Source: an uncultured Verrucomicrobia subdivision 3 bacterium (GTDB lineage: Bacteria > Verrucomicrobiota > Verrucomicrobiia > Limisphaerales > UBA11358). From it: a stretch of DNA of 64,000 nucleotides. A model generated the notes under the pieces. That model was not told the origin of the DNA. It ran no database searches and saw only the letters and a program-made list of their open reading frames with translations. The DNA lies in the NCBI GenBank assembly GCA_903858275.1, contig CAIOIC010000089.1, forward strand, positions 1 through 64,000, in the 5' to 3' direction. Below are positions 32,818 through 59,782 of the stretch, piece by piece. The translations under genes were made by a program, and so were the position numbers. The first letter of the stretch is position 1. The number at the start of each line of letters is the position of its first letter.

Positions 32818-34525
32818 AAACCGGTTCAGCAATCAGATCGTAATCGGTGTGGCCGATGACTTTGACCTTAGCGAACTGGCCGACAGGCAACGCGCCTTTC
32901 GCGGCGCGGACGTAAACGCGACCGTCAATGTCCGGCGCATCCGCCTCGCCGCGGGCGACGAAGAAATGACCTTTCATCTGATTTGTATGCTGGTCCGTCT
33001 CACGGATGAGACCGTGCTCCCACGAACTGACATTCGCGCCTTGTAGTTGCTTGGCGTTCGCCTCGCCTTCGATGAGAACTTTGATTTCGCGGCCGACAAA
33101 GGATTCAGAGACCGCGATGGCAACCTTGTGCTGCGCGGCCATGGCGAGTTCGCGGCGCTTTTGCTTCACCTTGTCGGAAAGCTGACCAGCCATCGCCCCG
33201 GCTCGCGTGCCGTCTTCCTTCGAGTAGGCAAAAACGCCAAGCCGCTCGAACTTCGTCTCGCGGATGAAATCCAGTAGCGCATTGAAGCTGGCTTCCGTTT
33301 CGCCGGGGAAGCCGACGATGAAGGTCGTGCGCAACGCGATGCCGGGAATTCCGGCGCGGATGCGCTTGATGAGATCCACGATGTATTGCTGCGAGGTTTC
33401 GCGGCGCATGCGTTCGAGCATGTTCTCGTGGATGTGCTGGAGCGGAATATCAATGTAGCACGCCACTTTCTTGCACTCAGCGATGGTCTGGATGAGTTCA
33501 TCCGTCCAGTGAGCGGGATGCGTGTAGAGCAAGCGAATCCAGAAATCGCCTTTGAGCGCATTCAGTTCGCGTAACAGCGTGCAAATGGTTGTGGCATCAG
33601 CCGCCAGCGACTTGGCAGCGGCGTTGAATTTTTCCGGCGACGAAATCGCACGACTGTGGTTGGGGCGCAAATCCAAGCCGTAGTAAGTTGAGTCCTGCGA
33701 AATCAGATTGATCTCTTTTACGCCATCGGCGATGAGCGCCTTCACTTCCTTGACGATGTCGGCCTGCGTGCGGCTGCGGTGGGACCCACGCATGCGTGGG
33801 ATGATGCAAAAGCTGCACGGATGGTTGCAGCCCTCGGCTATTTTTACATAGGCAAAATGTTTCGGCGTGAGGCGAAAGCGCGGCGTTTCAAAGTCAGGAA
33901 TGAAAACCGGGCGCTGGGTCACGTCGAAGACGGGCGAGGATGGAGGATGGAGGATGGAGGATGGCAACTTTGCGCCGATGACGGTCTTGGTCTTGCCGAA
34001 TTTCTCCGTGCCGCGAACGGCATTTTCCTTTTCATGTTCGTCCAGCGGACGGTTCTTTTCCAGTTCGTTCAAGTGCCCGACAACTTTTTGCTTCTGAATT
34101 CTGAATTCTGAATTCTGAATTCCGACTTTCCCCGCCCGATTGGCAATGGCTTTGCCCACGATGTCGCCAACCTGCGCCACCTGGTCAATGCCCATGAACG
34201 CATCCACCTCGGGCATGAGCTTGGGCAGTTCCTCGCGGAAACGCTGCGAGAGACAACCGGAAACGATGACCGCCTGACCACGTTGATTTGCATCGCGCAG
34301 CTCAACGGATTCAAGAATGGTGTCCACGCTTTCTTCCTGCGCGGAGTCAATGAACGAGCAGGTGTTGACGATGACGGCGTCGGCACTCGCGGCGTCATTG
34401 GTGATTTCGACGCCGCTCTTGAGCAGCGAGCCGAGCATGATCTCGGCATCCACGAGGTTCTTGGCACAGCCGAGCGAGATCAATCCGACGCGCAGCGGCC
34501 GGGAACTGGATATTTTCTTCGTCAC
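32816..34525 (-). CDS. rimO: Ribosomal protein S12 methylthiotransferase RimO, with internal insertions
   Basis: A radical-SAM enzyme that methylthiolates an Asp of ribosomal protein S12. The N-terminal UPF0004 domain has the cluster ligands Cys20 (LGCAKN), Cys56 and Cys91 (SGCLSQ). The radical SAM motif is CNHPCSFC (Cys233, 237, 240), and a C-terminal TRAM domain follows (about 500-569). At 569 residues it is about 110 longer than usual. Most of the excess is a low-complexity stretch at about 134-208 between the first two domains, which contains two 7-bp repeat arrays (encoding NSEFRIQ and PSSILHPP); another extra loop is at about 283-310. Catalytic motifs are intact, so it is probably functional. 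It starts with GTG 34525. Confidence 0.95.
   Translation of the reverse strand: MTKKISSSRPLRVGLISLGCAKNLVDAEIMLGSLLKSGVEITNDAASADAVIVNTCSFIDSAQEESVDTILESVELRDANQRGQAVIVSGCLSQRFREELPKLMPEVDAFMGIDQVAQVGDIVGKAIANRAGKVGIQNSEFRIQKQKVVGHLNELEKNRPLDEHEKENAVRGTEKFGKTKTVIGAKLPSSILHPPSSPVFDVTQRPVFIPDFETPRFRLTPKHFAYVKIAEGCNHPCSFCIIPRMRGSHRSRTQADIVKEVKALIADGVKEINLISQDSTYYGLDLRPNHSRAISSPEKFNAAAKSLAADATTICTLLRELNALKGDFWIRLLYTHPAHWTDELIQTIAECKKVACYIDIPLQHIHENMLERMRRETSQQYIVDLIKRIRAGIPGIALRTTFIVGFPGETEASFNALLDFIRETKFERLGVFAYSKEDGTRAGAMAGQLSDKVKQKRRELAMAAQHKVAIAVSESFVGREIKVLIEGEANAKQLQGANVSSWEHGLIRETDQHTNQMKGHFFVARGEADAPDIDGRVYVRAAKGALPVGQFAKVKVIGHTDYDLIAEPV
33936..33963. repeat. Heptamer array (GAGGATG x4) inside rimO
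   Basis: Four exact copies of GAGGATG in 28 bases. On the coding strand it reads PSSILHPPSS, within the extra region of RimO. One of two heptamer arrays in this gene. Confidence 0.9.
34094..34121. repeat. Heptamer array (CTGAATT x4) inside rimO
   Basis: Four exact copies of CTGAATT in 28 bases, coding for the IQNSEFRIQ part of the extra region of RimO. On the gene's strand none of the three frames of this unit contains a stop; the opposite strand has TGA. Confidence 0.9.
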
Positions 34526-34605
34526 AGTCGGCGGAGGTTAGCAGAGTTTTGGCGGGGGGCAATCTTGGGAAGCAACTCGCGGGAACGCCTGCCCCGCCGG
34601 CAAAA

Positions 34606-37526: not shown

Positions 37527-37537
37527 TTATTCAGCAG

Positions 37538-37630
37538 CCACAGATGGGCACAGATGAAACACAAATAAAATCATCCCGGTGATACGCGAAAGCTTTTTCT
37601 GAATCGGTGTGCATCGGTGTCAATCTGTGG
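37538..37630. repeat. Composite palindrome (10-bp units) between ABC permease and ATPase genes
   Basis: The left arm CCACAGATGGGCACAGATG (from 37538) and the right arm ending ATCTGTGG (37603-37630) are built from 10-bp units of the GGCACAGATG/ATCGGTGTGC type in inverted order. It occupies almost all of the gap between the two co-directional genes. Confidence 0.75.
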
Positions 37631-37636
37631 CAAAGA

Positions 37637-38854
37637 TTATTTCTTTCCGCCGAGCAGCGACGAAAGTTTTTCGTCCGCCTTGGACAGATCCACCGGCTTG
37701 GCTGGCTCCGCTTTTGCCGCTGGTTTTTCCGACTGGATGGCGGGAGCGGCCGGTTGAACCAGCGCAGTCAGTTTGCTTTCGTCGGCCTTGGGGACAGCAA
37801 TTTCCGCCGCCGAACTGACTGCAGCCGAGTGCGCAGCCGGTGGCAGCGACAATTTTTCCAAAACCTTTTCCGTCGGCGATTCGGCGCTGGCGCCGCCACG
37901 CAGATATTCGGCCACCCGCGCGCCGGACTGCGCGCCGCTGGTCTCGTGGGCCGCCAGCTTGGCCTTGGCCACCACGTCGAGAAAATAACTTTCGAGATTC
38001 TGCGTCGGATTGTCCACGCGCACTTCGCCGGTGGTGATATCCTGGCGGATGGTCGCCAAAACTTTTTCCAAAGTCTCGCGCGGCAGCACCGGCGTCGTGA
38101 TGCGCAACGTGTCCGGCGTGGCCAGCAAGTCCTTGAGCGTGCCGGCGGCCTGAATTTTTCCGCCGTAATAAATCACCACGCGGTCGCAGACATCTTCCAC
38201 GTCAGAGAGCAAGTGGCTGCTCAAAATCACGGTCTTGCCGCGCTTCGCGAGCGCGACAATCAAATCCTTCACTTCGCGGCAGCCAATCGGATCCAGGCCG
38301 GCGGTGGGTTCGTCGAGGATGATCAGGTCAGGATCGTTGATGAGCGCCTGCGCCAAACCGATGCGGCGCTGCATGCCCTTGGAAAATTCGCCCACCGCAC
38401 GGGTCTGCGTCTGGCCGAGACCGACCATTTCGAGCAACTGCTCCGCGCGATTATCGCGGTCAGCCTTATTGAGATGAAAAAGATTGCCAAAGAAATCCAG
38501 CGTCTCGCGGGAATTGAGATAGCGGTAGAGATACGATTCCTCCGGCAGATAGCCGATGCGGGATTTGGTCTGCACATGGCGCGGCGAATGGCCAAAGACT
38601 TCAATGTGGCCCTTCGTAGGATTCAGCAACCCGAGCAGCAGCTTGATGGTGGTGGATTTGCCGGAGCCGTTCGGGCCGAGCAGGCCGAAGATCTCGCCCT
38701 GGCGAACTTCAAAATCCACGCCGTCCACCGCGCGGGCCTTCGGGCGGTTCCAGAAATCTTTGAAGACCTTGGTGAGACCGCGGACGGAAACGACGACCTC
38801 GTCGGATTTTTGATTTCCGATTTCCGATTTACGATTTTGTTCGGCGACGGGCAT
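37637..38854 (-). CDS. ABC transporter ATP-binding protein
   Basis: A 405-residue ABC ATPase driving the adjacent ABC-2 permease. Walker A is GPNGSGKST (residues 60-68), the Q-loop is in GYLPEESYLY, the signature is EFSKGMQRR, Walker B is LIILDEPTAGLD and the H-loop is LSSHLLSD. The nucleotide domain ends near 300. An Ala/Pro/Lys-rich C-terminal extension of about 100 residues (AKAEPAKPVDLSKADEKLSSLLGGKK) is unusual. The first 20 residues (NRKSEIGNQKSDE) are encoded by a 7-bp repeat array, so the original start may have been further in. It starts at ATG 38854. Confidence 0.93.
   Translation of the reverse strand: MPVAEQNRKSEIGNQKSDEVVVSVRGLTKVFKDFWNRPKARAVDGVDFEVRQGEIFGLLGPNGSGKSTTIKLLLGLLNPTKGHIEVFGHSPRHVQTKSRIGYLPEESYLYRYLNSRETLDFFGNLFHLNKADRDNRAEQLLEMVGLGQTQTRAVGEFSKGMQRRIGLAQALINDPDLIILDEPTAGLDPIGCREVKDLIVALAKRGKTVILSSHLLSDVEDVCDRVVIYYGGKIQAAGTLKDLLATPDTLRITTPVLPRETLEKVLATIRQDITTGEVRVDNPTQNLESYFLDVVAKAKLAAHETSGAQSGARVAEYLRGGASAESPTEKVLEKLSLPPAAHSAAVSSAAEIAVPKADESKLTALVQPAAPAIQSEKPAAKAEPAKPVDLSKADEKLSSLLGGKK
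38805..38839. repeat. Heptamer array (GATTTCC type x5) in the ABC ATPase 5' end
   Basis: Five 7-bp units: GATTTTT, GATTTCC twice, GATTTAC, GATTTTG. They encode residues 6-16 of the ABC ATPase (NRKSEIGNQKS). The same unit recurs inside the aminotransferase gene at 56004-56038. Confidence 0.88.
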
Positions 38855-38887
38855 AAAGAAATTCGAGTCGGTAAACTGCGGTCTGAA

Positions 38888-39169
38888 TCAGGAGATTTTC
38901 CCCGCATACAAATCCGCCATCGGAAACACGAGGTCAAAATCGTTCCAGTGCAAAAAGCCGGCTTCCAGCGTGAATTTACGGAAACGTTTGCGGTCGTGGT
39001 AGGCCTGAATCGCCGGATTACGAGACTGACTCAAGAATGCGGCGAAGTCCACGAGGCTTTCGCGGCCGTCGTCAAAGCGCAGCTTCAGCTTGTAGGGCGG
39101 GACATATTCCGCCGCCTCGAGGCGGACAACCTTCGGCATCCGCGATTTTGTTTTTTCGACTGCAATCAT
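38888..39169 (-). CDS. DUF2442 domain protein
   Basis: A 93-residue protein with the DUF2442 pattern: VVRLEAAEYVPPYKLKLRFDDG, ESLVDFAAFL, and HWNDFDLVFPMADLY near the end. It overlaps the upstream DUF4160 gene by ATGA. DUF4160 and DUF2442 genes commonly occur as neighbours and have been proposed as a toxin-antitoxin-like or DNA-binding pair; no activity is established. Confidence 0.88.
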   Translation of the reverse strand: MIAVEKTKSRMPKVVRLEAAEYVPPYKLKLRFDDGRESLVDFAAFLSQSRNPAIQAYHDRKRFRKFTLEAGFLHWNDFDLVFPMADLYAGKIS

Positions 39170-39480: not shown

Positions 39481-41466
39481 TCACGCCAGCTTGGGCGTCA
39501 GTTGGCCGGCAGGCTTCTGCGGGAAGGTTTCCATTTCGGGATGGAAATGCTCCAGCTCCTCGCCTTTGCGAACGAGCCGCGCGCTGTTGAAGATCACGAT
39601 GAGCGAACCGACGTTGTGCAGCAGCGCCGCGACAATCGGTCCTACGATGCCGAACGACGCCGCGCCCAACCCAACGATGATGAACAGCACGCCAAACAGG
39701 AAATTCTGGTTGATGACGGCGCGGGTGCTGCGCGAGAGCTTCACCAGGAACGGCAGCCGGCGAAGATCGTTGTTCATCAGCGCAATCGTCGCGCTGTGGA
39801 TGGCCACTTCGCTGCCCGCCGCGCCCATCGCGATGCTGATGTCGCCGGCCGCGAGCGCGGGCGCGTCGTTCACACCGTCACCGACAACCGCGACTTTGTA
39901 GCCCTTCGCCTTCACGGCGCGGACGAAATCCACCTTGTCCTGCGGCAGGCAATCGCCCCTGGCTTCTTCGCAGGCAATTTCGGCCGCAACGCGCGTGGCG
40001 ACGGGCTGGCGATCACCGGACACCATCGAAATGCGGCGGACGCCGGCTTCCTTCAACTCGGCCAACGCGGCCTTCGCCTCGCTGCGGGTCTTGTCCTGCA
40101 TGCCGACCCAGCCGACGCATACGCCGTTGCGCGCGACGAAAATCAGGCTCCAGCCTTCGGCATCGTCCACATCCACGGATTTTTCAAAACCGGCGTCGAT
40201 GCCGTTGTCCTTGAGCCACTGCGCGCGGCCAACGAGAATTTTGGCGCCGCTGATCTCGGCTTTCACACCGCGACCGGGCGTTTCGGCAAAATCTTTTGGC
40301 TCGGTCAGCGGCACACCGGCTTCGCCCGCGAGATTGGCAAGGGCTTTGGCGGTGGGATGGTTGCTGTATTTTTCGGCGGATGCGGCGAGCAATAAAAGTT
40401 CGGCGGGCTTCGTTTCGCCAATCGGCGCAAGGCGGCTGACGGCGAGCTGGCCGGTGGTGAGCGTGCCGGTCTTGTCGAAGATGAAGGCGTTGATCTTCGC
40501 GGCGGTTTCAATGTCGGCGACGTTCTTGATTAAAATTCCCAAACGCGCAGCAGCGGAAAGCGCGGCAACCATCGCGGTCGGCGTCGCAAGAATGAAGGCG
40601 CACGGGCAGGACACGACGAAAACCGCGATGACGCGGCTCAAATCATGTGTGAAGGCCCAGACCAGCGCGCCGATGACCAGCACGAGCGGCGTGTAAAAGC
40701 CCATGTATTGATCCACGATTTTCTGGATGGGCAGCTTGGTTTTTTCGGCAGCGATAATCAGTTCGCGCACGCGGCCGAGCGTGGTGTCGGTGCCGGCGCG
40801 GCTGACTTTGATTTCCAGAACTCCGGTGAGATTTTGCGTGCCAGCGAACACTTCATCGCCGGTGTTTTTTTCCGCAGGCAAAGATTCACCGGTGATGGTG
40901 GCCTGGTTAAACGAACCTTGACCGTTGACGATGATGCCGTCCGCCGCCACGTTGTCGCCGGGGCGGATGCGGATGACATCGCCGACGGCGAGCTGGCTGG
41001 CGGCGACTTCTTCCTCGCTGCCGTCCTTCTTGAGTCGGCGCGCCTTGGTAGGCGTGAGTTTGATGAGCGATTCGATGGAATCGCGCGCGCCCTGGGCGGT
41101 GCGGGTCTCGATGATTTCGCCGGTGAGCATGAAGAAGGCGACTATGCCGGCGGTCTTGTAATCGCCGGACGAAAACGCGGCGAGCACGGCGATGGCGACA
41201 AGCTCATTGATGCTCAGATTGCCACGCCGCAGATCCTTGACGGCGGTGACGATGATGGGATAGCCGAGAATAATCGAGCCGATCATAGCACTGGCACTGG
41301 CGAGCGTGCTGCCGGAATCAAACAGCCAGTCCACGATGAAAGCATTAAGGACGAAAACGACGCCGAGAACGGCCTGCCAGAGATGCACGACGGAATGTTC
41401 GTGGTCGTGGCCGCAGCCGCACTCCGGACCGTGCTCGTGCTGGCTTAAAAGGGACGTAACTTGCAT
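39481..41466 (-). CDS. Heavy-metal-translocating P1B-type ATPase
   Basis: A 661-residue metal-exporting P-type ATPase. The N-terminus has no heavy-metal-associated ferredoxin domain but a short His/Cys tail (HEHGPECGCGHDHEH, residues 10-24) that could bind Zn, Cd or Co. The actuator loop has TGES (192-195), the transmembrane metal site is SCPCAF (CPC at 287-289), the phosphorylated residue is Asp331 (DKTGTLT), followed by SNHPTAKA and GDGVNDAPAL. The CPC motif with a His-rich tail fits ZntA/CadA-type Zn/Cd export, although copper export cannot be ruled out. It starts at ATG 41466, with a heptamer array and hairpin cluster directly upstream. Confidence 0.93.
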   Translation of the reverse strand: MQVTSLLSQHEHGPECGCGHDHEHSVVHLWQAVLGVVFVLNAFIVDWLFDSGSTLASASAMIGSIILGYPIIVTAVKDLRRGNLSINELVAIAVLAAFSSGDYKTAGIVAFFMLTGEIIETRTAQGARDSIESLIKLTPTKARRLKKDGSEEEVAASQLAVGDVIRIRPGDNVAADGIIVNGQGSFNQATITGESLPAEKNTGDEVFAGTQNLTGVLEIKVSRAGTDTTLGRVRELIIAAEKTKLPIQKIVDQYMGFYTPLVLVIGALVWAFTHDLSRVIAVFVVSCPCAFILATPTAMVAALSAAARLGILIKNVADIETAAKINAFIFDKTGTLTTGQLAVSRLAPIGETKPAELLLLAASAEKYSNHPTAKALANLAGEAGVPLTEPKDFAETPGRGVKAEISGAKILVGRAQWLKDNGIDAGFEKSVDVDDAEGWSLIFVARNGVCVGWVGMQDKTRSEAKAALAELKEAGVRRISMVSGDRQPVATRVAAEIACEEARGDCLPQDKVDFVRAVKAKGYKVAVVGDGVNDAPALAAGDISIAMGAAGSEVAIHSATIALMNNDLRRLPFLVKLSRSTRAVINQNFLFGVLFIIVGLGAASFGIVGPIVAALLHNVGSLIVIFNSARLVRKGEELEHFHPEMETFPQKPAGQLTPKLA

Positions 41467-41470
41467 AAAA

Positions 41471-41498
41471 ATTTACGATTGGCGATTTACGATTTTAA
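41471..41498. repeat. Heptamer array (ATTTACG type x4) upstream of the P-type ATPase
   Basis: Units ATTTACG, ATTGGCG, ATTTACG and ATTTTAA, directly upstream of the ATPase ATG (41466). It occupies the position where a ribosome-binding site would be expected. Confidence 0.75.
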
Positions 41499-41536: not shown

Positions 41537-41656
41537 GTCCCGGAGGGACGGCCGGAAAGATTGTACCGGGTTCTGCCGCCCCTGCGGGGCTTGATTTCAT
41601 TCCGGCTTCAACCCGCCGTTGAAACGGCGGGCTATTTTCTTTTGTCCCTACGGGAC
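41537..41656. repeat. Cluster of four short palindromes (REP/BIME-like)
   Basis: Four perfect hairpins lie in 120 bases: GTCCC-GGA-GGGAC (41537-41549), CCCC-TGC-GGGG (41579-41589), CCCGCCGTT-GA-AACGGCGGG (41612-41631) and GTCCC-TAC-GGGAC (41644-41656). The first and last are nearly the same palindrome and flank the other two, like a bacterial interspersed mosaic element. I recall similar strings scattered through Verrucomicrobiota genomes. No RAYT transposase gene is in the window. Confidence 0.8.
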
Positions 41657-41692
41657 ATTGAAACGTTTGCCGGTGCTGACTTTTGAAAAATT

Positions 41693-43209: not shown

Positions 43210-43293
43210 ACATTCAACACCGAACATCCAACAAACGCCCGCGACGCCGAATCATTGGGCGCTGAGCGTTGAAGGTTGGTGGTTGAAAGTTTC
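43210..43293. repeat. Inverted pair of heptamer arrays between hflK and hflC
   Basis: The left arm has four units (ACATTCA, ACACCGA, ACATCCA, ACAAACG; 43210-43237). The right arm has five (GCGCTGA, GCGTTGA, AGGTTGG, TGGTTGA, AAGTTTC; 43259-43293). The right arm is roughly the reverse complement of the left, so the hflC-hflK intercistronic RNA would form a hairpin. Confidence 0.75.
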
Positions 43294-48635: not shown

Positions 48636-51056
48636 TTACGCCATTGCGCGGGCGATGCTGTTCCACCAAGCGTCGTACAATTCGGTGAGCGGGGCGGCAA
48701 ATTCGCCAGCCACGGTCTTCACCGTCAGCTGGTCGCCGCCGACTTTGCCGATTTGCACTGCGGGCACGCCCATGAGCTTGGCGCGTTCGACCACCTTTAC
48801 GGCGTCGAGGGCTTTGCAAGTGATGACGATGCGCGATTGGGTTTCACCGAAGAGAAGGGCGTCGAGGCGGACGGCTTTATTTGTGAGTCGGCTCTGATCT
48901 TCCCCGGAATTTGTATGGAGCGGACTCACGTCCGCTGCTACCCGAGAGAGATCAACCGTGGCGCCGATGAGGCGCGGGGTTTCGCGGGCGATGAGCTGGC
49001 TGATGCAGCTTTCCGCAAGCGCGACGGCGAGGCCGCCTTCGCTGCAATCGTGCGCGCTCTTCACGAGGCCGGATTGGATCAGGCCGATGAGCGTGGTGTG
49101 CAGCGTCTTCGCGACTTCGAGGTCGCAACGCGGCGGCGAACCGTTCTTCCGGCCGTGGACGACTTGTAAATAGGCGCTACCACCGAGACCGAAAATCGGG
49201 TCAGCCTGGTCCACCGCGTCGCCGAGCAGGATGATGGCGTCGCCCTCGTCCTTGAACCATTGGGTGGTGACGTGCTCCAGCTTTTCGATGAGGCCGACGA
49301 CGGAAATCGTGGGGGTCGGATCGATCGGACCGGCGGGATTCTGGTTATAGAGCGAGCAGTTGCCGCCGGTGACGGGCGCGTTGAAGGCCTGGCAACCTTC
49401 GGCCAGGCCGCGCACGGATTCCTTGATCTGCCAGAACAGCTCAGGCTTGAGCGGGCTGGGCATGTTGAGATTGTCCGTGGCGCCGAGCGGCAACGCGCCG
49501 GAGCAGGCGAGATTGCGGCAGGCCTCGGCCACGGCGATTTTCGCGCCTTCGTAGGGATCGAGATAAACGTAGCCGCCGTTGCAGTCCACGGTCATGGCGA
49601 TGAGCTTTTCGGGCACTGGCGTGCCGGCCACCCTGGCCGCCAAGTCGGCGGTCATCACGGGCAAAGAATCGGTTTTGATGCGGATGACGGCGGCGTCGCT
49701 GCCGGGCAGGACGACCGAGCCGTCGCGCACCTGATGATCGTATTGGCGATAGACCCAGTTCTTCGACGCGATGCTCGGCCAAGCCAAAAGCTTTAACAAA
49801 TCGGAGATGGGAGATTGGCTATCGGGAATTCCATCCAGCCGGAACGCGCGGACGTCTTTGAGATAGGCGGGCTCAACGCCTTCGCGATGATAGACCGGCG
49901 ATTCATCGGCGATCTTCTTCGCGGGAATGTCCACGACGAGTTTGCCGCCGTGGCGCACCTTCATGTGGCCGGTGTCGGTGATGATGCCGATCTCGGCCCA
50001 CGGCAGATCCCATTTGTCGAAAATGCGCTTCACTTCCTCTTCGCGGCCCTTGTGGACGACGATGAGCATGCGTTCCTGCGACTCCGAGAGCATGAGTTCG
50101 TAGCTGCTCATTTTCGCGGCGCGTTGCGGAACTTTGTCGAGTTCGATCTCGATGCCGGTGCCGGCGCGCGCAGCCATTTCGCAGGTGGAACAGGTCAACC
50201 CCGCCGCGCCCATGTCCTGCATGCCGGCGACCGCGCCGGTGGCGAGCAGCTCCAGACACGCTTCGCACACGAGTTTTTCCATGAACGGATCGCCGACCTG
50301 CACCGCGCCGCGCTGCTGTTCGGACGATTCCTCGGTCAAATCCTGCGACGCAAACGCCGCGCCCGCGAGCCCGTCGCGACCCGTCGCCGGGCCGACGTAA
50401 AACACGGGATTGCCCACGCCCCTTGCCGCGCCGCGCGTGATCTGCTCGTGGCGCAGCACGCCGAGGCAGAACGCGTTCACGAGTGGATTACCTTGATACG
50501 TCTTGTCGAAATACACCTCGCCCGCGACAGTCGGGATACCGAAACAATTGCCGTAATGCGCGATGCCGCTGACGACGCCCGCAAACAATCTCCGATTGTT
50601 GGCGATTTCAGCTTTCGAATTTGAAAGGTCCGATTCGCCGTTCGCCGTGATCGGCCCGAACCGCAGCGAGTTGACCGCGCAGACGGGGCGCGCGCCCATC
50701 GTAAAGATGTCGCGCACGATGCCGCCGACGCCGGTGGTGGCGCCCTGAAACGGCTCGACCGCGCTCGGGTGGTTGTGGGACTCGATCTTGAACGCGATGG
50801 CGATGCCGTCGCCGATGTCAATGATGCCGGCGTTTTCCTCGCCCGCGCCGACGAGTATCTTCGGCGACTTGGTGGGGAAGGTCTTGAGCAGCGGCTTGGT
50901 GTTTTTGTAGCTGCAATGCTCGCTCCACATCACGGAAAAAATGCCGAGCTCGGTGTAGCTCGGCGTGCGGCCGAGGATGGCCACGGCATGCTGGTATTCT
51001 TCCGGCGTGAGGTTGTGCTTCGCGACGAGTTCGGGAGTGATGGCGGGTTCGGTCAT
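48636..51056 (-). CDS. purL: Phosphoribosylformylglycinamidine synthase subunit PurL, with insertions
   Basis: The 806-residue ATP-dependent synthetase of the fourth step of purine synthesis, small Bacillus-type PurL that works with PurQ and PurS. Motifs are [18 protein letters not shown] (about 41-58), [45 protein letters not shown] and [17 protein letters not shown]. Family members have about 740 residues. Three of the extra stretches coincide with repeat-like [19 protein letters not shown] (139-154), [13 protein letters not shown] (7-bp array at 49802-49829) and [16 protein letters not shown] (palindrome at 48919-48936). All are in frame and catalytic motifs are intact. It is the last gene of purSQL. 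Confidence 0.96.
48919..48936. repeat. AGCGGAC-TCAC-GTCCGCT palindrome inside purL
   Basis: A 7-bp perfect stem with a 4-base loop, followed by GCTAC. The same layout (AGCxGxC, nCAC loop, GxCxGCTGCTAC) appears inside the aminotransferase gene at 55760-55782. In PurL it encodes part of [13 protein letters not shown], near the C-terminus. Confidence 0.75.
49802..49829. repeat. Heptamer array (GGGAGAT type x4) inside purL
   Basis: Four imperfect 7-bp units (CGGAGAT, GGGAGAT, TGGCTAT, CGGGAAT) that encode [10 protein letters not shown], an extra stretch relative to other PurL proteins. Confidence 0.7.
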
Positions 51057-51068: not shown

Positions 51069-51779
51069 TTAAGCCGCTTGCGCGACGGTTTTGTTTTTGA
51101 GCGCGGCGAAGATGCTTTCGAAAATCCATTTACCGTCGGCGCTGCCGAGGAGCGGTTCGCAGGCGCGTTCGGGATGCGGCATCAGGCCGGCCACGTTGCG
51201 CTTTTCATTGCAGATGCCGGCGATATTCAGCAGCGCGCCGTTCGGATTTGCGCTGTCGGTCAGGTTGCCGTCCTGATCGCAATATTGCCACAGGATCTGG
51301 TTGTTGGCCTTGAGTTTCGCAAGCGTTTCTTCGTCGGCAAAATAGCAGCCTTCGCCATGGGCGATGGGCACGCGGAGAATTTTTCCCGCGGGAATTTTGC
51401 TCGTGAACGGAGAATCGTTCGTGGCGGTCTTGAGGAAAATGTTTTCGCAGTGGAATTGCAGGTCGCGGTTGCGGATGAGCGCGCCGGGCAGCAGGTGCGA
51501 TTCGGTCAGGACTTGAAAGCCGTTGCAGATGCCGATGACGAGGCCGCCGTTGTCGGCGAATTGTTTCACGGCCTGCATCACGGGGCTGAACCGCGCGATC
51601 GCGCCGCAGCGCAGGTAATCGCCGTAACTGAAACCGCCGGGCACGATGACGCAGTCGGTATCGCCGAGCGAGGCGTCCTTGTGCCAGACGAGGCGCGCGG
51701 AATGACCGAAGTGCCGCACGGCGTGGACGGCGTCCTGGTCGCAGTTGCTGGCGGGGAATTGGAGGACGGCAAAGTTCAT
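51069..51779 (-). CDS. purQ: Phosphoribosylformylglycinamidine synthase subunit PurQ
   Basis: The 236-residue glutamine amidotransferase subunit that supplies ammonia to PurL. The nucleophile elbow is GICNGFQVL (Cys near 84), and the His and Glu of the triad are in [11 protein letters not shown] near the C-terminus (about 200). [15 protein letters not shown] is the family's oxyanion-loop region. It overlaps purS by ATGA and is 12 bases upstream of purL, so the three are translated together. Confidence 0.97.
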
Positions 51780-53500: not shown

Positions 53501-53506
53501 ATTTTT

Positions 53507-53668: not shown

Positions 53669-54014
53669 ATTTTCCCGCCGCCGGAAAATGGTCGCGCATT
53701 TTCTCGCGCAATACTTCGATCAAATTTGCATCCATGAATTCGTAATCGTCGGCAATGAAAAGGCAGACACACGGTTTCGCCGCCAGCGCTTCGGGATATT
53801 TTTGCCGCAACCGTTCCTTGTGCCGCTTCTCCATCACCATGATGACATCCGCCCAGCCGAGCTGTCCGGCGGTCACTTTGATGCGCGCACTTTCTTCGGT
53901 TCCAGCCGAACTGATATCCCACGCAGGTTCGCCCTTGAAAATCGTTTCCGCCGTCAGACTGCGCCGCCGGTTACGGCTGCACACGAACAGGATTTTTATG
54001 CGCGCAGATTTCAA
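53667..54014 (-). CDS. Small low-molecular-weight protein-tyrosine-phosphatase-like protein
   Basis: A 115-residue protein with the phosphatase loop VCSRNRRRSLTAE near its N-terminus (C-x-N-x5-S version of CX5R; Cys near 12) and the C-terminal general-acid region around FIADDYEFMDANL. It matches a short LMW-PTP-like family (about 105 residues) whose members I recall as predicted protein tyrosine phosphatases. The start is probably TTG 54014, which overlaps the TGA of rsmA (TTGA); no ATG is available near the motif. The frame is open upstream inside rsmA, but that part is not family-like. Confidence 0.8.
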   Translation of the reverse strand: MKSARIKILFVCSRNRRRSLTAETIFKGEPAWDISSAGTEESARIKVTAGQLGWADVIMVMEKRHKERLRQKYPEALAAKPCVCLFIADDYEFMDANLIEVLREKMRDHFPAAGK

Positions 54015-54907: not shown

Positions 54908-54979
54908 GGAAAAAGTTTTGCCGCAGATGAAAGCGGATTAACGCAGATGGGGGGGGGAAATGAATTGGTGCCATTAGTC

Positions 54980-56359
54980 TTAAGCTGCGGTTAATACTTC
55001 TACGAGCACAGCGACGGCCTGGCCGAGTTGCGCCCGGGTGATGGTGAGCGGCGGAGTGAAGCTGATGACGTTGGCGGGTTCACCTTCCGGCAGAAAAATA
55101 TAGCCGCGATGCAATAGTGTTTTGATCGCGTGGAGCGCGATTTGCGTCGCCGGTTTTCCGTCAGGCAAAGTCAGTTCCACGCCAGCCATCAAGCCGAGGC
55201 CGCGGGAAGTGTTTTTAATTTTAAGTTTTAAGTTTTTAATTGAAGAAAGTTCGCCCACCAAAAATTTACCCAGCGCGCCGCTGCGCTCGCACAATTTCAG
55301 CCGTTGAATTTCTTTGATCTGGGCCAGCGCCATCGCGCAGCCGACGGGATGACCGAGAAACGTGCTGGTGTGAATCGCTTCGCCCGTCGAGGCGGGCCAG
55401 GCAGCATCCATCAAATCGGCGTGGCCAACGCAGGCGGACAGTGGAAAACCACCGGTCAGCGCCTTGCCAAGGCAGATCAAATCCGGAACCACGCCGCTGT
55501 GCTCGCAGGCGAACCATTTGCCGGTGCGGCCAAAGCCAGTGTAAATCTCATCGAGAATGAGCAGCGCGCCATGTTCGTCGCAAAGCCGGCGGAGCAGCGG
55601 CAGAAATTCCGGCGGCGGAATATTGATGCCGCCGCGGGCCTGAATCGGCTCGACGAGAATCGCGCCGATTTTTTCGCGGCGGAAAGCCCGGCGGATGTGT
55701 TGCTCAACTTCGTGGCAGCCGACGTGAGTCGCCGCCATCTTGATTCCAGTTTTAGAATGAGCCGGCGCACGCCGGCTGCTACAAGACGAAGTGGGAAACT
55801 TCACGAAATGGACAAATTCACGCAGCTGCGAGCGGAACGGGCGGCGGAAATGCTCGCGGTGCGTGGCGTTGAGCGCGCCGTAGCCAAGCCCGTGGTAACC
55901 GCCGGCAAAAGCGATGACGCCGCATTTGCCGGTGGCCAGCAGCGCGGTCTTGAGCGCCGATTCGACGGCTTCAAAACCGGAGTTGGAGAAAATGACTTTT
56001 CCCCATTTCCGATTTCCGATTTCCGATTTCCGATTTGTTTTTGTCCAGCGCTCGAAGGTGATCCGGCTCAATTCCCGCGCGAGCCGAGCCTTGAGCGCGT
56101 GGGGATGCACGTCGCCCATCGCGTGCAGGAGTTTCGCCATCTGCCGCTGACCGGCTTTGACAACTTCGGGATTGGCGTGACCGGCGGCGGCGACGCCGAA
56201 GGCGGCGGTCAGGTCCAGATATTTTTTCCCTTCGGCATCCCAGACATGAACTCCCCGGGCGCGCTCCCAGACAATCGGCCACGAGCCGTCCGGCTCAGTG
56301 AACAGGACATTGCGCGATTCGTGGTCGCGGAGGAGTTGGAGGGTTTGCCGGGTATTCAT
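54980..56359 (-). CDS. Class III PLP-dependent aminotransferase with repeat-derived insertions
   Basis: A 459-residue fold-type I, class III aminotransferase, in the acetylornithine / 4-aminobutyrate / beta-alanine group. Features are LDLTAAFGVAAAGHANPEV, the PLP phosphate site FSNSGFEAVESALKTA, AFAGGYHGLGYG, LILDEIYTGFGRTG (Asp binding the ring nitrogen) and the Schiff-base Lys in ICLGKALTGGFPLSA. The donor substrate is not clear. Three in-frame low-complexity stretches look like insertions: NRKSEIGNRK (about 109), SSRRAPAHSKTGIKMAATHVG (about 190) and KNLKLKIKN (about 376). Each coincides with a repeat in the DNA. It starts at ATG 56359. Confidence 0.9.
   Translation of the reverse strand: MNTRQTLQLLRDHESRNVLFTEPDGSWPIVWERARGVHVWDAEGKKYLDLTAAFGVAAAGHANPEVVKAGQRQMAKLLHAMGDVHPHALKARLARELSRITFERWTKTNRKSEIGNRKWGKVIFSNSGFEAVESALKTALLATGKCGVIAFAGGYHGLGYGALNATHREHFRRPFRSQLREFVHFVKFPTSSCSSRRAPAHSKTGIKMAATHVGCHEVEQHIRRAFRREKIGAILVEPIQARGGINIPPPEFLPLLRRLCDEHGALLILDEIYTGFGRTGKWFACEHSGVVPDLICLGKALTGGFPLSACVGHADLMDAAWPASTGEAIHTSTFLGHPVGCAMALAQIKEIQRLKLCERSGALGKFLVGELSSIKNLKLKIKNTSRGLGLMAGVELTLPDGKPATQIALHAIKTLLHRGYIFLPEGEPANVISFTPPLTITRAQLGQAVAVLVEVLTAA
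55212..55239. repeat. Heptamer array (TTTTAAG type x4) inside the aminotransferase gene
   Basis: Units TTTTTAA, TTTTAAG, TTTTAAG, TTTTTAA, coding for KNLKLKIKN. The unit is related to the AGTTTTA array in thiD (59454-59488). Confidence 0.85.
55760..55782. repeat. AGCCGGC-GCAC-GCCGGCT-GCTAC palindrome inside the aminotransferase gene
   Basis: A 7-bp perfect stem with a CAC-containing loop followed by GCTAC, the same architecture as in purL (48919-48936). It encodes the SSRRAPAHS stretch, which is extra relative to other class III aminotransferases. Confidence 0.75.
56004..56038. repeat. Heptamer array (GATTTCC type x5) inside the aminotransferase gene
   Basis: Units CATTTCC, GATTTCC three times and GATTTGT, coding for NRKSEIGNRKW. 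It is the same unit and nearly the same peptide as in the ABC ATPase at 38805-38839. Confidence 0.9.
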
Positions 56360-56366
56360 TTTTTAA

Positions 56367-56520
56367 CCACGGATGGACACGGATGGACACGGATGAAAAC
56401 AAATGGCGTACGGATTTTAGCCAGCATCAGCATAGATGCGGTCAAGGCGGGCGGAAGTTGAAGCGGGCGACAGCCCGCGTCCCAACCAAATCCGTGTTTA
56501 TCTGTGTTCGTCCGTGGTTT
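56367..56520. repeat. Composite palindrome (10-bp units) between aminotransferase and queE
   Basis: The left arm has three units of GGATGGACAC (from CCACGGATGG at 56367). The right arm has three inverted units (ATCCGTGTTT, ATCTGTGTTC, GTCCGTGG; 56490-56518). The interior includes the short palindrome GCGGGC-GACA-GCCCGC (56463-56478). Confidence 0.8.
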
Positions 56521-56525
56521 CATTT

Positions 56526-57266
56526 TTAAACTCCCCGATGCTCCGGCGGCCAGATGATTTTGTGCTGCTGGATTTGAAAACGGACCGGGAGCGCGTCGGC
56601 GATGATTTTTTCCGCGAGCTCCTGCCGCGATACCGGCGTAAGGCCGGCGGGAACTTTTTTCAACACCTGGTTCTGCTGCTCCGGCGCCAGCGGATGAACC
56701 CACGAAAACAGCACCGGGCAAAGGGCGGCCAGCGGGTGCGCGGCGAGCTGCGATTTCGCCCATTCGTAATCTTCCACCGTGCCGATGACGAACTTAATTT
56801 CGTCGATGGATTTCAAGTGCGCGATGTTCTCGAACCGGTTGCGCGCGACTTCGCCGCTGGAGGGGCATTTCAAGTCCACGATGCGATGGACGCGCGGGTC
56901 AATTTTGGAGATGTCATGCGCACCGCTCGTCTCGATGAGCACGGTGAAGCCGTCATCGCACAGCTGCCGCAGGAGCGACAGGGAATTCTGCTGGAGCAGC
57001 GGCTCGCCGCCGGTGAGTTCGACGAGCGGCAGACGCGAGGCCGGATGCCGGACGCTGGATGCGGGATTTGAAAACGGCGCGGCCGACCGTTTCACTTCCG
57101 TCAAAATTTCCTCGAGCGTTTTCTTTTTGCCGACGGTGAAAGCGTAGGCGGTGTCGCAGTAGGAGCACCGGAGGTCGCAGCCGGTGAGCCGGATGAAAAG
57201 GCACGGCAGCCCGGCAAAGGTGCTTTCGCCTTGCAAGCTCAGATAGATTTCGTTGACGACGAGCAT
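56526..57266 (-). CDS. queE: 7-carboxy-7-deazaguanine synthase QueE
   Basis: A radical-SAM enzyme of queuosine synthesis that contracts the ring of carboxytetrahydropterin. The N-terminus VVNEIYLSLQGESTFAGLPC, the 4Fe-4S motif CDLRCSYCDTAYAF (CX3CX2C) and VELTGGEPLLQQ are diagnostic. ATG 57266 is preferred over a GTG three codons upstream. The segment SNPASSVRHPASRL, between the cluster motif and GGEP, is encoded by a 7-bp repeat array and is probably an insertion. No other queuosine genes are in the window. Confidence 0.94.
   Translation of the reverse strand: MLVVNEIYLSLQGESTFAGLPCLFIRLTGCDLRCSYCDTAYAFTVGKKKTLEEILTEVKRSAAPFSNPASSVRHPASRLPLVELTGGEPLLQQNSLSLLRQLCDDGFTVLIETSGAHDISKIDPRVHRIVDLKCPSSGEVARNRFENIAHLKSIDEIKFVIGTVEDYEWAKSQLAAHPLAALCPVLFSWVHPLAPEQQNQVLKKVPAGLTPVSRQELAEKIIADALPVRFQIQQHKIIWPPEHRGV
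57041..57068. repeat. Heptamer array (CCGGATG type x4) inside queE
   Basis: Units CCGGATG, CCGGACG, CTGGATG, CGGGATT. They encode most of NPASSVRHPAS, just before the conserved GGEP motif of QueE. Confidence 0.8.
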
Positions 57267-57372
57267 ATCGGACACGCGGAAAAGCTACGCGGAACCGGTG
57301 GAATTAAACAGGTTTTTCACGCGGGCGGCTGGAATTCTTCGAGGGATGGGTTACAATATTCAAATTAAGCCC

Positions 57373-58971
57373 ATGCTCCGGCGCTTTCCAAAACTCAGTC
57401 TGCTGGCCGCTTTTATCCTGAGCGGCGTCAGCAGCCAGGCGACCGCGCTTGATGATATCGGAGTAACGCTGCTGCGGGAGATGACAACCAATTTGAACGG
57501 TTCCGGCATTCGAATGGCACAAGCGGAAGCCAATACCGACGGCAACACAAATCATCCGAGCGCCTTTGAAGTCAATCCCGCCGCCGACCCAGTTCAGCAG
57601 CCGATAAATCTTTTTACCTACTATTCCAGCCTTGGCTCAACGAACGGTTTTCCGAACGCCGCCGGCGCCGAGTCGGGACATGCGAATATCGTGGGCGGTA
57701 TTATTTATGGCCGCACCAACGGCGTAGCCCCGAATGTAGCGCATGTAGATAATTTTGATGCAGATTACTTCATCCAATCCTATTATGATGCTTTAAGTAA
57801 TCTGGTTGTTGCCTTGCCGCCAACCAACATCAACGATTCAATAATAAATCAAAGTTTCACTTTCGGAAACTTATCCGCCAGCGACCAACGAATCGTCGAC
57901 GCAGCTTACGATGATTACGCGGGGTCAAATAATTCGTTTTTTGTATCCGCCGCGTGTAATTACTCGATAAGGCGCCGGGTTTGCGCCCCCGGCACGGCGT
58001 ATAATTGCATCAGCGTGGCAGCTTATGGCGGGGACTCGAGCATCGGTCCGACCATTGACAATGGCCGCAGCAAGCCGGACATCACCGCACCCGCTAATGC
58101 AACCAGTAGTTCCACACCCCAAGTTTCCGGCGTGGCGGCGTTGCTGATGCAGGCCGCGCGGCGCGGCGACGGTGGGAGTGACACCAATGCCGCCGCGGAT
58201 TTGCGAACGATCAAGGCGCTGCTGCTCAACGGCGCGGTGAAACCGGCGAACTGGACGAACTCAAGTTCCTCGCCGCTCGACGCACGTTACGGCGCGGGGG
58301 TGGTAAACGCGTTTAATGCCCACAGGCAACTCGCGGGCGGCAAACAAATTTTTTGCGCGGCAAATCCGGTCGCCAGCGGCGGGGCGCATCCGCCGGTGGC
58401 GGAAACCAATTCCGTGGCCGCCACCAGCGGCTGGAGTTGGGAAAGCATTTCCAGCAGCGCGACGGACGACGCAGTGAATCATTATTTCTTCAATGTTTCC
58501 AACGGCATGACCACGGTCACACTGGTCTGGAACCGCCAATACGGCCAGTCCAACATCAACAACCTCGACTTGTTTTTGCTCAACGCCGCCAACAGCAATC
58601 TCGTCGCCGGCAGCACCAGCCGCGTGGACAATGTCGAGCACCTCTTCCTCCCGCAGCTGCCGGCGGGACGCTATGATTTGCAGGTCTTGAAATACGGCGG
58701 CACGAATGTGGTCAGCGATGGAGAAACTTACGCGCTGGCATTTGCCTTCGTTTCGCCGGAACCAAACCTGACGAAGTCCGGCGCCAACCTGACTTTGACC
58801 TGGCCGGTTTATCCCGCCGGTTTCCGCGCCGAGGCGGCGACCAATCTGGTTGCGCCCACCTGGATCACGAATGATCTGCCAGCCCCGGCCATCACGAACA
58901 ACAGGAACAGCCTGATTTTGCAGGCGACGAATGCTTTCCAGTTTTTCCGCCTGCGCAGTCCGGATTTTTGA
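57373..58971 (+). CDS. Secreted subtilase-like (S8) protein with altered triad
   Basis: A 532-residue exported protein with signal peptide (LSLLAAFILSGVSSQATA). The middle resembles subtilisin-like proteases: His103 in ESGHANIVGG fits the catalytic His, Asn159 in INQSF fits the oxyanion site, and Ser245 in ATSSSTPQVSG aligns with GTSxAxPxVxG. The position of the catalytic Asp (usually xAVxDTG) reads GIRMAQAEA, with Glu52 instead, so activity is doubtful. The second half is beta-rich (LDLFLLNAANSNLVAGS). It ends with a 60-residue module (NLTLTWP...AEAATNL...FQFFRLRSP) that I recall as a common C-terminus of secreted Verrucomicrobiota proteins, possibly a sorting domain. Start 57373 is chosen for the signal peptide. 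Confidence 0.75.
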   Translation: MLRRFPKLSLLAAFILSGVSSQATALDDIGVTLLREMTTNLNGSGIRMAQAEANTDGNTNHPSAFEVNPAADPVQQPINLFTYYSSLGSTNGFPNAAGAESGHANIVGGIIYGRTNGVAPNVAHVDNFDADYFIQSYYDALSNLVVALPPTNINDSIINQSFTFGNLSASDQRIVDAAYDDYAGSNNSFFVSAACNYSIRRRVCAPGTAYNCISVAAYGGDSSIGPTIDNGRSKPDITAPANATSSSTPQVSGVAALLMQAARRGDGGSDTNAAADLRTIKALLLNGAVKPANWTNSSSSPLDARYGAGVVNAFNAHRQLAGGKQIFCAANPVASGGAHPPVAETNSVAATSGWSWESISSSATDDAVNHYFFNVSNGMTTVTLVWNRQYGQSNINNLDLFLLNAANSNLVAGSTSRVDNVEHLFLPQLPAGRYDLQVLKYGGTNVVSDGETYALAFAFVSPEPNLTKSGANLTLTWPVYPAGFRAEAATNLVAPTWITNDLPAPAITNNRNSLILQATNAFQFFRLRSPDF

Positions 58972-59782
58972 AATGGCCGCCAAGCTGGTCCAGCGCGAAG
59001 TGCCGGCCGATCGGGTAGCTGTTTGAAATGGCCACCGTGATGAAGTTTTTCGCGATTTCCACGGCCTGCGGCAAGTCGCAACCCAACGCCAGCGCGGCGC
59101 AAATCGCTGCAGAATAGGTGCAGCCGGTGCCATGCGTGGAAACGCCCCGCACAAACGGCGCGGACAACAGCAACTCGGTTTCGCCATCGAAAAAAACATC
59201 AATCGCCTCCCGGGAGTTTTTTAGGTGACCGCCCTTGACCAAGGCCGCACAGCCGTAGCGCAAAACGATTTTGCGCGCGGCGGAGCGCAAATCTTCCGGC
59301 GAGGAGATTTTTTGTTCCGCGAGGATTTCCGCCTCGTCCAGATTCGGCGTGACGAGCGCGGCGAGCGGCAGAAGTTTTTCTTTCAAAACTTTTTCCGCCG
59401 AAGGTTTCAGCAAGCGGGCGCCGCTAGTGGAGATCATCACAGGGTCTACGACCAGTTTTAAGTTTTGAGTTTTAAGTTTTGAGTTTCGAAAAATGCTCGC
59501 CACGGCCGAAATGTTTTCCGCCGAGAACAGCATTCCGGTTTTAACCGCCGAGGGCGGCAGCTCCGCAAAAACGGCCTCGATTTGCCGGCGCAACATTTTG
59601 GGCGAACACGGTTCCACACCGAGGACACGCTTCGGATTTTGCGCCGTGAGACAGGCGATGGCGCTGGTGCCGTGGACGCCAAGGGCGGCAAAGGTTTTCA
59701 GGTCAGCTTGAATACCGGCGCCGCCGCCGCTGTCGGAGCCGGCGATGGTCAGGGCGACGGGCCGTGGTCTGCGTTTTGTCAT
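58892..59782 (-). CDS. thiD: Hydroxymethylpyrimidine/phosphomethylpyrimidine kinase
   Basis: A ribokinase-fold ThiD of thiamine synthesis. Motifs are LTIAGSDSGGGAGIQADLKTF (about 11-31), GTSAIACLTAQN, VVDPVMISTSGARLL, VTPNLDEAEIL and the anion hole THGTGCTYSAAICAALA. At 296 residues it is about 30 longer than usual. The Cys-rich tail after ALDQLGGHF (GKTGKHSSPAKSGCSCCS) is read through DNA that also encodes the end of the convergent subtilase-like gene (80-base overlap), so the tail probably arose by loss of an earlier stop. NSKLKTQNLK is encoded by a 7-bp array. It starts at ATG 59782. Confidence 0.93.
   Translation of the reverse strand: MTKRRPRPVALTIAGSDSGGGAGIQADLKTFAALGVHGTSAIACLTAQNPKRVLGVEPCSPKMLRRQIEAVFAELPPSAVKTGMLFSAENISAVASIFRNSKLKTQNLKLVVDPVMISTSGARLLKPSAEKVLKEKLLPLAALVTPNLDEAEILAEQKISSPEDLRSAARKIVLRYGCAALVKGGHLKNSREAIDVFFDGETELLLSAPFVRGVSTHGTGCTYSAAICAALALGCDLPQAVEIAKNFITVAISNSYPIGRHFALDQLGGHFKNPDCAGGKTGKHSSPAKSGCSCCS
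59454..59488. repeat. Heptamer array (AGTTTTA/G type x5) inside thiD
   Basis: Units AGTTTTA, AGTTTTG, AGTTTTA, AGTTTTG, AGTTTCG, coding for RNSKLKTQNLKL. The alternation of A and G at the last base avoids the TAA that a pure AGTTTTA array would create on the thiD strand. Confidence 0.9.

Follow-up and report, generated by a model that had tools for sequence, protein, structure and literature searches.

How can tandem arrays of seven-base words stand inside the genes of conserved enzymes, and why does the word differ from one array to the next? The question is raised by the window, a stretch of 64,000 nucleotides from a Limisphaerales-type (Verrucomicrobia subdivision 3) MAG, referred to below as genome G000. 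Bacteria are already known to carry heptamer repeats as such, with one class of them in Xanthomonas. The tracts described here, about 30 bp of a tandemly repeated seven-base word, are a persistent and probably non-adaptive repeat class of this bacterial order. For their diversity, the reading proposed, with a probability of about 0.46, is that misalignment or short-patch recombination rewrites tolerated heptamer repeats where they stand and that frame and hydrophilicity then act as a filter. The carriers are a group of uncultured bacteria from soil and freshwater.

Period-7 arrays of the window

A preliminary description had listed eleven period-7 arrays in the window, eight of them in conserved genes and none in the first 33 kb. 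The period-7 scan found six strong arrays (match-score of at least 12), with concordant TRF results, all of which lie beyond 33 kb; order-1, order-3 and order-5 Markov simulations of the window (20 runs each) gave 0, 0 and a mean of 0.05. With gene assignments by Pfam domains, all six lie in genes of the minus strand. Two occupy the linker between UPF0004 and Radical_SAM of a RimO-type gene (UPF0004, Radical_SAM, TRAM_2), namely (GAGGATG)4 at 33936-33964 (coding strand CATCCTC; site 2) and (CTGAATT)4.4 at 34092-34122 (coding strand CAGAATT; site 1). A GATTTCC-type array at 38805-38837 lies in the N-terminal extension of an ABC ATPase (ABC_tran; 37637-38854). TTTTAAG at 55212-55236 and (ATTTCCG)4.6 at 56005-56036 share one class-III aminotransferase, at sites called HemL_A and HemL_B as working labels and not as identities, and an AGTTTTA/AGTTTTG array at 59454-59486 lies in ThiD, a phosphomethylpyrimidine kinase by Pfam.

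Two weaker arrays were recognized by TRF: a degenerate CCGGATG array in QueE (57040-57067, minus strand, 80% match) and a degenerate ATTTACG array (41471-41495, without assigned strand, 77% match) immediately 5' of the E1-E2 ATPase gene at 39481-41466 on the minus strand. The remaining three listed positions changed status. The entries at 43210 and 43259, each below the scan threshold singly, are the arms of one imperfect, unstranded hairpin (43210-43290; TTCAACA-type and GTTGAAx-type degenerate heptamers; -34.3 kcal/mol, z -3.2) between two Band_7 genes. The purL entry (AIRS by Pfam; 49802-49818, minus strand) consists of about two GGGAGAT-like units, was picked up by neither scan and has no array counterpart at the corresponding position in the relative G016. 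It does not qualify as an array, and seven arrays inside conserved genes are left. A short run absent from the earlier list, AACTTGA x2.7 at 59809-59827, was added by TRF.

The period-7 excess claimed over composition-matched controls is clear from the Markov runs and from a comparison of periods in 2.09 Mb of pooled DNA, mostly that of relatives. In this set, 189 arrays have period 7, and 36, 16 and 25 have periods 6, 8 and 9, respectively. Unit number peaks at four and five (47 and 31 arrays), with a detection sensitivity that drops below three units; lone exact 7-bp duplications were not in excess. Inside predicted genes lie 126 of the 189, in a set that is enriched for RimO and has gene calls crude enough to count the ThiD array as outside any gene. 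Words recur, with 48 distinct rings in 85 arrays versus about 82 expected from letter composition. Among the genomes sampled, G107, G034 and G001 are rich in arrays and G057 and G158 are poor in them.

Array turnover at orthologous sites

The comparison sample comprised one genome per species. G000 and G016 share 86-91% DNA identity over their main aligned contig pairs, and 9 of 20 and 11 of 36 array loci could be mapped between them, partly because the matching contigs fell outside the comparison; c126:38671, with a mapped length of zero, was left out. Relatives' arrays occupy the same linkers of RimO, QueE, the aminotransferase and ThiD, often with another word at near-equal length. At RimO site 1, G016 bears a CGCTTTC-type array in place of the window's CTGAATT array. 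At site 2, the window's GAGGATG array is missing from G016, and the GAGGATG/CATCCTC word occurs in 11 of 33 array-bearing sequences. The QueE site carries an AGTTTTG array in G016 and arrays of nine words in 17 of 28 genus sequences. In the aminotransferase, the array at 55212 is kept in G016 and its site bears arrays in 9 of 15 genus sequences (8 words); at the 56005 site, the array of G016 is of AGTTTTT type, and 6 of 18 genus sequences bear arrays (6 words). The ThiD array is also kept in G016, with arrays in 8 of 10 genus sequences (5 words) and a single length with or without an array. The window's GATTTCC-type array is found in one of the two ABC ATPase copies of G016, and the 41471 array is kept. 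Those in ThiD and at 55212 and 41471 are identical in the two genomes down to their variant units, and the words of others differ at 3-5 of 7 positions.

The earlier statement that the arrays are in frame, lie in low-complexity linkers and vary between species was thus borne out; the sites are in frame across the reading frames compared, by a method that would cut short or miss broken genes. That the array residues would be absent from distant orthologues held for three proteins. In RimO, a stretch of about 93 residues in the window corresponds to some 20 in structure 4jc0; for ThiD and the aminotransferase, the best PDB match has gaps of 4 and 13 residues, respectively, at arrays. For QueE (radical SAM domain; best PDB match 7-carboxy-7-deazaguanine synthase), the PDB alignment has no clear gap. 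Within these comparisons, neither of the two outcomes that would have refuted the earlier description was seen. Because relatives lack the arrays or bear other words, the arrays are dispensable for the enzymes. An "extra" linker in one of these proteins may thus be repeat DNA rather than a functional domain.

Proposed rewriting in place

In the proposed mechanism, the replicating strand could misalign by one seven-base unit and realign, such that one unit is copied over its neighbours with unchanged length. Whole units may occasionally be gained or lost, and word change may also stem from short-patch recombination, either between alleles or between arrays. Selection would then purge arrays that shift the frame, introduce stops or yield a hydrophobic peptide, and the survivors would hence be found in polar linkers, in most cases with the C/A-rich strand coding. 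Between genes, where frame is irrelevant, a second inverted arm would be common, and hairpins could come and go as whole units.

Rewriting is supported by the period-7 peak, the Markov controls and the differing words of G000 and G016 at shared sites, and also by a shared register. Phase information was 4.52 at RimO site 1 and 8.02 at site 3 versus 1.28 (sd 0.15) and 3.39 (sd 0.39) under random rotation, values that are inflated by relatedness. With one row per distinct word and a 3' anchor, both sites exceeded all 2000 rotations, and they still did so for words at least two substitutions apart (13 words at site 1 and 7 at site 3). Different words in one register at these sites point to rewriting in place. 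Under the same restriction, which leaves few words there, a shared register no better than chance or only weakly above it was obtained for RimO site 2, for QueE from the 3' anchor, for the two aminotransferase sites and for ThiD.

Occasional gain or loss of units is suggested by the hairpin at 43210, which in G016 has two more units (+14 bp), by a length difference of exactly 21 nt (three units) between L111 and L113 at RimO site 2, and by a whole hairpin at one junction that is present in G016 and not in G000. A general rule of 21-nt steps, which fits L111/L113 and the QueE lengths of 114 versus 93 nt, was dropped because other steps measure 0, 3, 6, 18, 30 and 33 nt and five array-less QueE sequences are also 114 nt long. 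The selective filter is supported by word orientation. There are 55 distinct words in coding orientation, 32 of which are stop-free both ways; 25 of these 32 are found in the orientation that gives the more hydrophilic peptide, and 7 in the opposite one. A mechanistic strand preference was rejected since stop avoidance and hydrophilicity explain much of the orientation bias. A three-frame stop cassette, in which one stop codon per unit would be read in every frame because 7 is coprime to 3, fits the intergenic words TTAAAAA and TGAATGT but not CGAAATC and CCATCCT, and was set aside.

Several observations weigh against this explanation. Gradual slippage should leave two-unit intermediates, which are not in excess. 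With some arrays the same in G000 and G016 and others altered at 3-5 of 7 positions, change looks episodic. The step of seven bases and the recurrence of words are both unaccounted for by misalignment.

Alternative origins

A somewhat unlikely alternative is that mobile REP/MITE-like mini-elements, prefabricated cassettes of some 30 bp (single arm) or 90 bp (hairpin), enter tolerant hot spots and displace one another, the in-gene survivors resembling Rickettsia palindromic elements. It would suit the narrow array size without short intermediates, and also the dispersal of words, since CATCCTC x4 at up to 3 mismatches has 6-16 matches per genome (overlaps counted) in six of six genomes. An inverted partner within 120 nt accompanies 22 of 85 arrays and none of 85 controls, the majority of the in-gene arrays listed being without a scored one. 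Many intergenic arrays are hairpin arms, a point overlooked by the preliminary description. The junction at 51773-51778 (unstranded), compact in the window with 6 nt between the anchors used, holds an insert of 82-135 nt in 19 of 21 readable loci of relatives, and by species the insert is 7-periodic, 8-periodic or missing: seven loci are best at period 7 (L239, one of them, is below background) and six reach at least 0.44 for period 8. Several species likewise have palindrome-like inserts, different from one another, at one purL spot, which is empty in L215 and L243. Against such cassettes, the loops of the 13 hairpins listed, all from G001:C17, appear unrelated by eye, the register is tied to the site at RimO sites 1 and 3, and the RimO array of L081 has no exact second copy in its own, incomplete genome G012, where three other places match at 3 mismatches.

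A less probable reading is horizontal spread of arrays at constant length: stretches of 30-45 bp would be overwritten through flanking identity, the source being a single-stranded fragment or a different species' copy of the gene. Short-patch double illegitimate recombination was considered beside it. Replacement itself is evident from lengths. RimO site 3 measures 84 nt in 13 of 14 array-bearing sequences and 81 nt in 49 of 66 array-less ones, which indicates that the array replaces native sequence and makes clean insertion untenable there. Between L081 and L077 (92.4% identical over 2421 nt), a RimO patch of about 42 nt is replaced between near-identical flanks with a net change of +3 nt, and the G000/G016 comparison shows 40-for-40 and 46-for-40 swaps at two further sites. 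An array thus replaces about 30 native bases at some sites, and the earlier term "inserted" is too simple. Replacement at a net 0, 3 or 6 nt is also not expected from slippage alone. Each of the many words would, however, require a matching donor; none was found for the CTGAATT array within 3 mismatches elsewhere in the incomplete G000, nor an exact one for L081 in G012.

Still lower is the probability of a dedicated generator, in the form of an enzyme or a repair pathway, that would copy a seven-base template four or five times, overwrite some 30 bases where the DNA has a break or gap, and rejoin the original sequence. Arbitrary arrays would thereby arise in one step at tolerant sites, and inverted arms by hairpin copy-back.

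It is very unlikely that the hairpins are kept by selection for transcript ends or stability while the repeat word drifts. Gene junctions are often occupied by hairpins, and at junction 51778 an insert is present in 19 of 22 readable loci, 15 of the 19 folding at z -2 or lower against mononucleotide shuffles. Three loci, including that of the window, are nevertheless compact, for four inserts the folding gain over shuffles is slight or nil (z -0.6 to -1.8), and single in-gene arms would have no such role. Finally, phase variation by unit number, which a unit not divisible by three would permit and of which a heptamer case is known (Haemophilus HMW1A), is highly improbable for housekeeping enzymes with mostly four to five units and reading frames that are all in frame among those compared, by a method that broken genes might escape.

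Relation to known repeats

Heptameric repeats are described as GGGAATC in Xanthomonas and GGGGA(C/T)T in Nostoc (PMC4692102). The Xanthomonas class resembles the present arrays in its seven-base unit, preference for four units, genome-wide occurrence and sequence variation between close species, and convergent pairs are common to both (70 and 75 cases in two genomes for the Xanthomonas type; PMC4692102). In contrast, Xanthomonas and Nostoc each have one G-rich word type, whereas dozens of words, most without G-tracts, are found here; the Xanthomonas repeats are 89-93% intergenic, whereas many of the present arrays are inside conserved genes (in the pooled set, with its crude calls, 126 of 189 are inside predicted genes). 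The number four has been tied to G-quadruplexes in that class (PMC4692102), but words such as AAAAATT, CAAAACT and CAACATT are not G-rich and, judged from sequence, would not form them.

TAACTGA direct repeats of Beggiatoaceae likewise have a seven-base unit in few copies genome-wide, but they are one word, mainly 5' of start codons, with neighbouring words rarely repeated, in contrast to the many words, in-gene positions and hairpins seen here (PMC4679880). Cyanobacterial STRR are also tandem heptanucleotides, with three words in Calothrix (PMC4692102); in-gene word turnover in housekeeping enzymes was not found in the excerpts consulted. A literature search on heptanucleotide tandem repeats in Verrucomicrobia found no paper, and broader searches gave none with such arrays, judged by titles, abstract openings and excerpts. 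A polymerase-footprint idea is cited for the commonness of heptamers among longer bacterial simple repeats (PMC4692102, PMC4679880). Rickettsia palindromic elements, also short and in frame within unrelated metabolic genes, measure about 150 bp and form ten sequence families (PMC10969869), as opposed to the present arrays, which span some 30 bp, vary in word and, for most of the in-gene ones listed, have no scored inverted partner.

In this clade, dozens of species bear arrays in a few shared linkers of housekeeping enzymes, with differing words and, at RimO, a common register. This makes the birth, rewriting and loss of seven-base tracts traceable, as a natural record of repeat rewriting without protein breakage, and the missing two-unit stage is a sharp test against plain slippage. 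GTAG-type REP elements, which are reported in the Verrucomicrobium O. terrae (PMC3733652), share a palindromic character with repeats seen here, but the heptamer arrays have no fixed sequence. By eye, palindromes starting with GTAG were recognized at the purL spot in some relatives, and in one RimO linker.

Excess and distribution of period-7 arrays

Arrays were detected by a scan for self-similarity at period p. Six strong period-7 segments (match score at least 12) were found in the window, every one past 33 kb, as expected from the reported absence of arrays from the first 33 kb. Markov simulations of the window (20 runs each) contained none at orders 1 and 3 and a mean of 0.05 at order 5, so that the excess over random sequence on which the preliminary description had made its case depend is present. 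That description listed eleven heptamer arrays; six strong and two weaker ones (41471 and 57041) were recovered, whereas 43210 and 43259 are the arms of one hairpin and no array exists at 49802. Over 568 kb of G001:C17, which belongs to a genus relative, the scan found 38 segments at period 7 and 0-9 at each remaining period from 2 to 13; one order-3 simulation gave none at period 7. A pool of 2.09 Mb (83 sequences: the window, contigs of its genome G000 and of G001, and 79 RimO loci) contained 189 segments at period 7, compared with 36 at period 6, 16 at period 8, and 25 at period 9.

The genome containing the window (3.66 Mb, 136 contigs, 94% complete) encodes a RimO whose closest matches are MAGs labelled Limisphaerales, Verrucomicrobia subdivision 3, or Pedosphaera. 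Five MAG records with RimO 74-77% identical to that of the window (L108, L112, L113, L118, and L122) are titled Akkermansia muciniphila, Klebsiella pneumoniae, or Proteobacteria, titles that look wrong. A GATTT-based pattern occurred in 29 of 40 genomes, including the window's own, and a CAA-based pattern in 37 of 145 drawn over the phylum, an indicative count since the reversed control was also frequent in several. Among the genomes picked after a pattern match, G107 had 7 period-7 segments in 60 kb, G034 had 5 in 100 kb, and G077 had 3 in 220 kb; elsewhere there was 1 each in 220 kb of G057 (a complete genome), 99 kb of G039, and 49 kb of G087, and none in 56 kb of G158, 36 kb of G035, or 20 kb of G140. 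Even inside one genome the density varies (1 in 160 kb of C33 versus 6 in 89 kb of C89, the window's contig).

Array size and word usage

Imperfect arrays are mostly 28-34 nt long (83/126 inside genes, 35/63 outside), and among 115 scored at a lower threshold, 47 have four units and 31 have five. An unusually long heptamer tract of 101 nt, mostly TCACGCA units, lies at L131:4892-4992. The array words are not random: 85 arrays from six contigs or parts comprise 48 distinct word rings, whereas letter composition predicts approximately 82, and a single pyrimidine-purine step occurs in 55 of the 85 arrays versus 32 expected. Four-unit CATCCTC had 6 to 16 matches per genome in all six genomes (at most 3 mismatches, overlaps counted); a second place for four-unit CTGAATT was not found in G000. 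A ten-base tandem repeat, CACGGATGGA x2.8, lies between the aminotransferase gene and queE (56368-56406).

Host genes and word variation

Host genes were assigned by Pfam. Both RimO arrays of the window (site 1, 34092..34122; site 2, 33936..33964) fall between the UPF0004 and Radical_SAM domains, in a linker of ~93 residues versus ~20 in RimO structure 4jc0. Compared with the best PDB matches, the ThiD array (59454..59486) coincides with a 4-residue gap and the aminotransferase array at 56004 with a 13-residue gap; the claim of extra residues at array sites is supported for these three proteins, and for QueE (57040..57067) no clear gap was seen. Arrays occur at RimO sites 1 and 2 in 39 and 33 of 81 sequences, with 21 and 17 distinct words, and at site 3 in 14 of 80 (one duplicate dropped), with 9. 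Palindrome-like repeats are also found in the RimO linkers of L090, L117, and L124, the last of which has a CAACTCT heptamer array broken by such a repeat.

The window's contig and G016:C20 are collinear, with a mean DNA identity of 89%. Eighteen array sites could be judged between G000 and G016; loci that failed mapping were dropped (11/20 in G000, 25/36 in G016). The same word was present at five sites (38805, 41471, 43210, 55212, and 59454), the 43210 hairpin differing by +14 bp, and a different word at the same place at four (RimO 34094, 56004, 57041, and c62:43740). Eight arrays were confined to one genome: RimO 33936, RimO site 3, c62:43087, c33:127609, C60:190828, C60:207927, the 51778 hairpin, and the purL array, whose spot is 201 nt longer in G016. 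C20:66174 was ambiguous. At an in-frame PurL spot (window ~50580-50660; loci L214-L243), palindrome-like inserts differ between species, the segments reaching 306 nt versus 63 nt in L215 and L243. In G016:C20 (~139500-140150; L157/L158), the N-terminal segment of the ABC gene is present in two diverged copies with several hundred extra bp between them; the GATTTCC-type tract is found in one copy and a diverged form of it in the other. A reading frame in the extra DNA is, by its motif, presumably Doc/Fic-like.

Within genus sets including the window, arrays were present in 17 of 28 QueE sequences (9 words; 114 nt in 15/17, and also in 5/11 segments without an array), 8 of 10 ThiD sequences (5 words; 96 nt in all, array or not), 9 of 15 at aminotransferase site A (55212..55236; 8 words; 96 nt in 8), and 6 of 18 at site B (56005..56036; 6 words; scattered lengths).

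Replacement, register, and possible mechanism

The arrays had been described as insertions. Array-bearing forms of RimO site 2 and aminotransferase site B are commonly ~18-33 nt longer, but at RimO site 3 native sequence is replaced: the segment measures 84 nt in 13/14 sequences with an array and 81 nt in 49/66 without, while 14/66 of the latter have 84 nt and some, by eye, resemble decayed arrays. Loci L081 and L077 (92.4% identical over 2421 nt) match in their flanks up to a patch that differs along its whole length with a net change of +3 nt. Further G000/G016 replacements were 40 for 40, 46 for 40, and 42 for 24.

Unit register was measured against conserved flanking codons (5' and 3' anchors) and compared with random rotations. 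It was shared above all 500 rotations at RimO sites 1-3, QueE, and ThiD, from the 5' anchor only at aminotransferase site A, and not beyond the rotations at site B. As this measure over all rows is inflated by kinship, it was repeated with each distinct word represented once; RimO sites 1 and 3 again exceeded all 2000 rotations, and for the remaining five the observed value was reached by 0 to 9/2000 (better of two anchors). When words had to differ by at least two substitutions, RimO sites 1 and 3 remained firm (0-4/2000), RimO site 2 (44 and 357/2000) and QueE (254 and 12/2000) were weak, and both aminotransferase sites and ThiD were at or near chance (2000 rotations).

At RimO sites 1 and 3, the register common to widely differing words is an argument for in-place rewriting of an old tract. 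Away from period-7 tracts of at least 25 nt, 95 exact period-7 duplications (runs of at least 7) were counted versus 96 in an order-5 simulation, and 102, 123, 118, and 81 at periods 5, 8, 10, and 11; short intermediates are therefore not in excess. Their lack, like the length-neutral replacement, speaks against simple growth through slippage. Based on this register and these objections to slippage, we favor, with a probability of about 0.46, misalignment by one 7-base unit, which would rewrite the array word, together with patch replacement acting alongside it, the resulting arrays being filtered by the protein. Mobile mini-elements are a less likely alternative source, and horizontal patches a less likely one again.

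In PMC4692102, the Xanthomonas GGGAATC repeats resemble the present arrays in their four-unit preference and convergent pairs, but their word is G-rich, the number four being linked there to G-quadruplexes, and they are 89-93% intergenic. Because most words here lack G-tracts, the four-unit preference would need a cause other than G-tracts, at least here. The idea that seven bases reflect a polymerase footprint is cited in PMC4692102 and PMC4679880.

Hairpins and gene junctions

For 22 of 85 arrays, a partner in inverted orientation (at least 70%) lies no more than 120 nt away; random flanks gave 0 of 85. Inverted pairs were also sought by a looser scan covering G001:C17, the window, and stretches of two G000 contigs; the 13 listed all lie in G001:C17, and several occupy the whole gap separating two predicted genes. 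Near 51778, the junction could be read in 22 of the 30 loci retrieved: three, including the window, are compact (6-9 nt), and 19 carry 82-135 nt. Against a periodicity background of 0.42 (95th percentile) and 0.46 (99th), period 7 was the best-scoring period of seven inserts (0.55-0.61 in six, 0.39 in L239), six others reached 0.44-0.54 at period 8, and six were weaker or aperiodic, among them the best-folding, L219 and L238 (z -8.3 and -9.5, mononucleotide shuffles). Heptamer hairpins therefore share this site with other hairpin classes. Directly downstream of rimO, a strong intergenic hairpin with CGCCAAG-type repeated arms (32725-32822; -45.1 kcal/mol versus -24.6, sd 3.5, in shuffles) is a non-heptamer relative of the heptamer hairpins. 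Beyond the ATPase gene start, positions 41612-41657 (+) match the Acido-Lenti-1 RNA family (RF01687, 47.2 bits; gathering 37).
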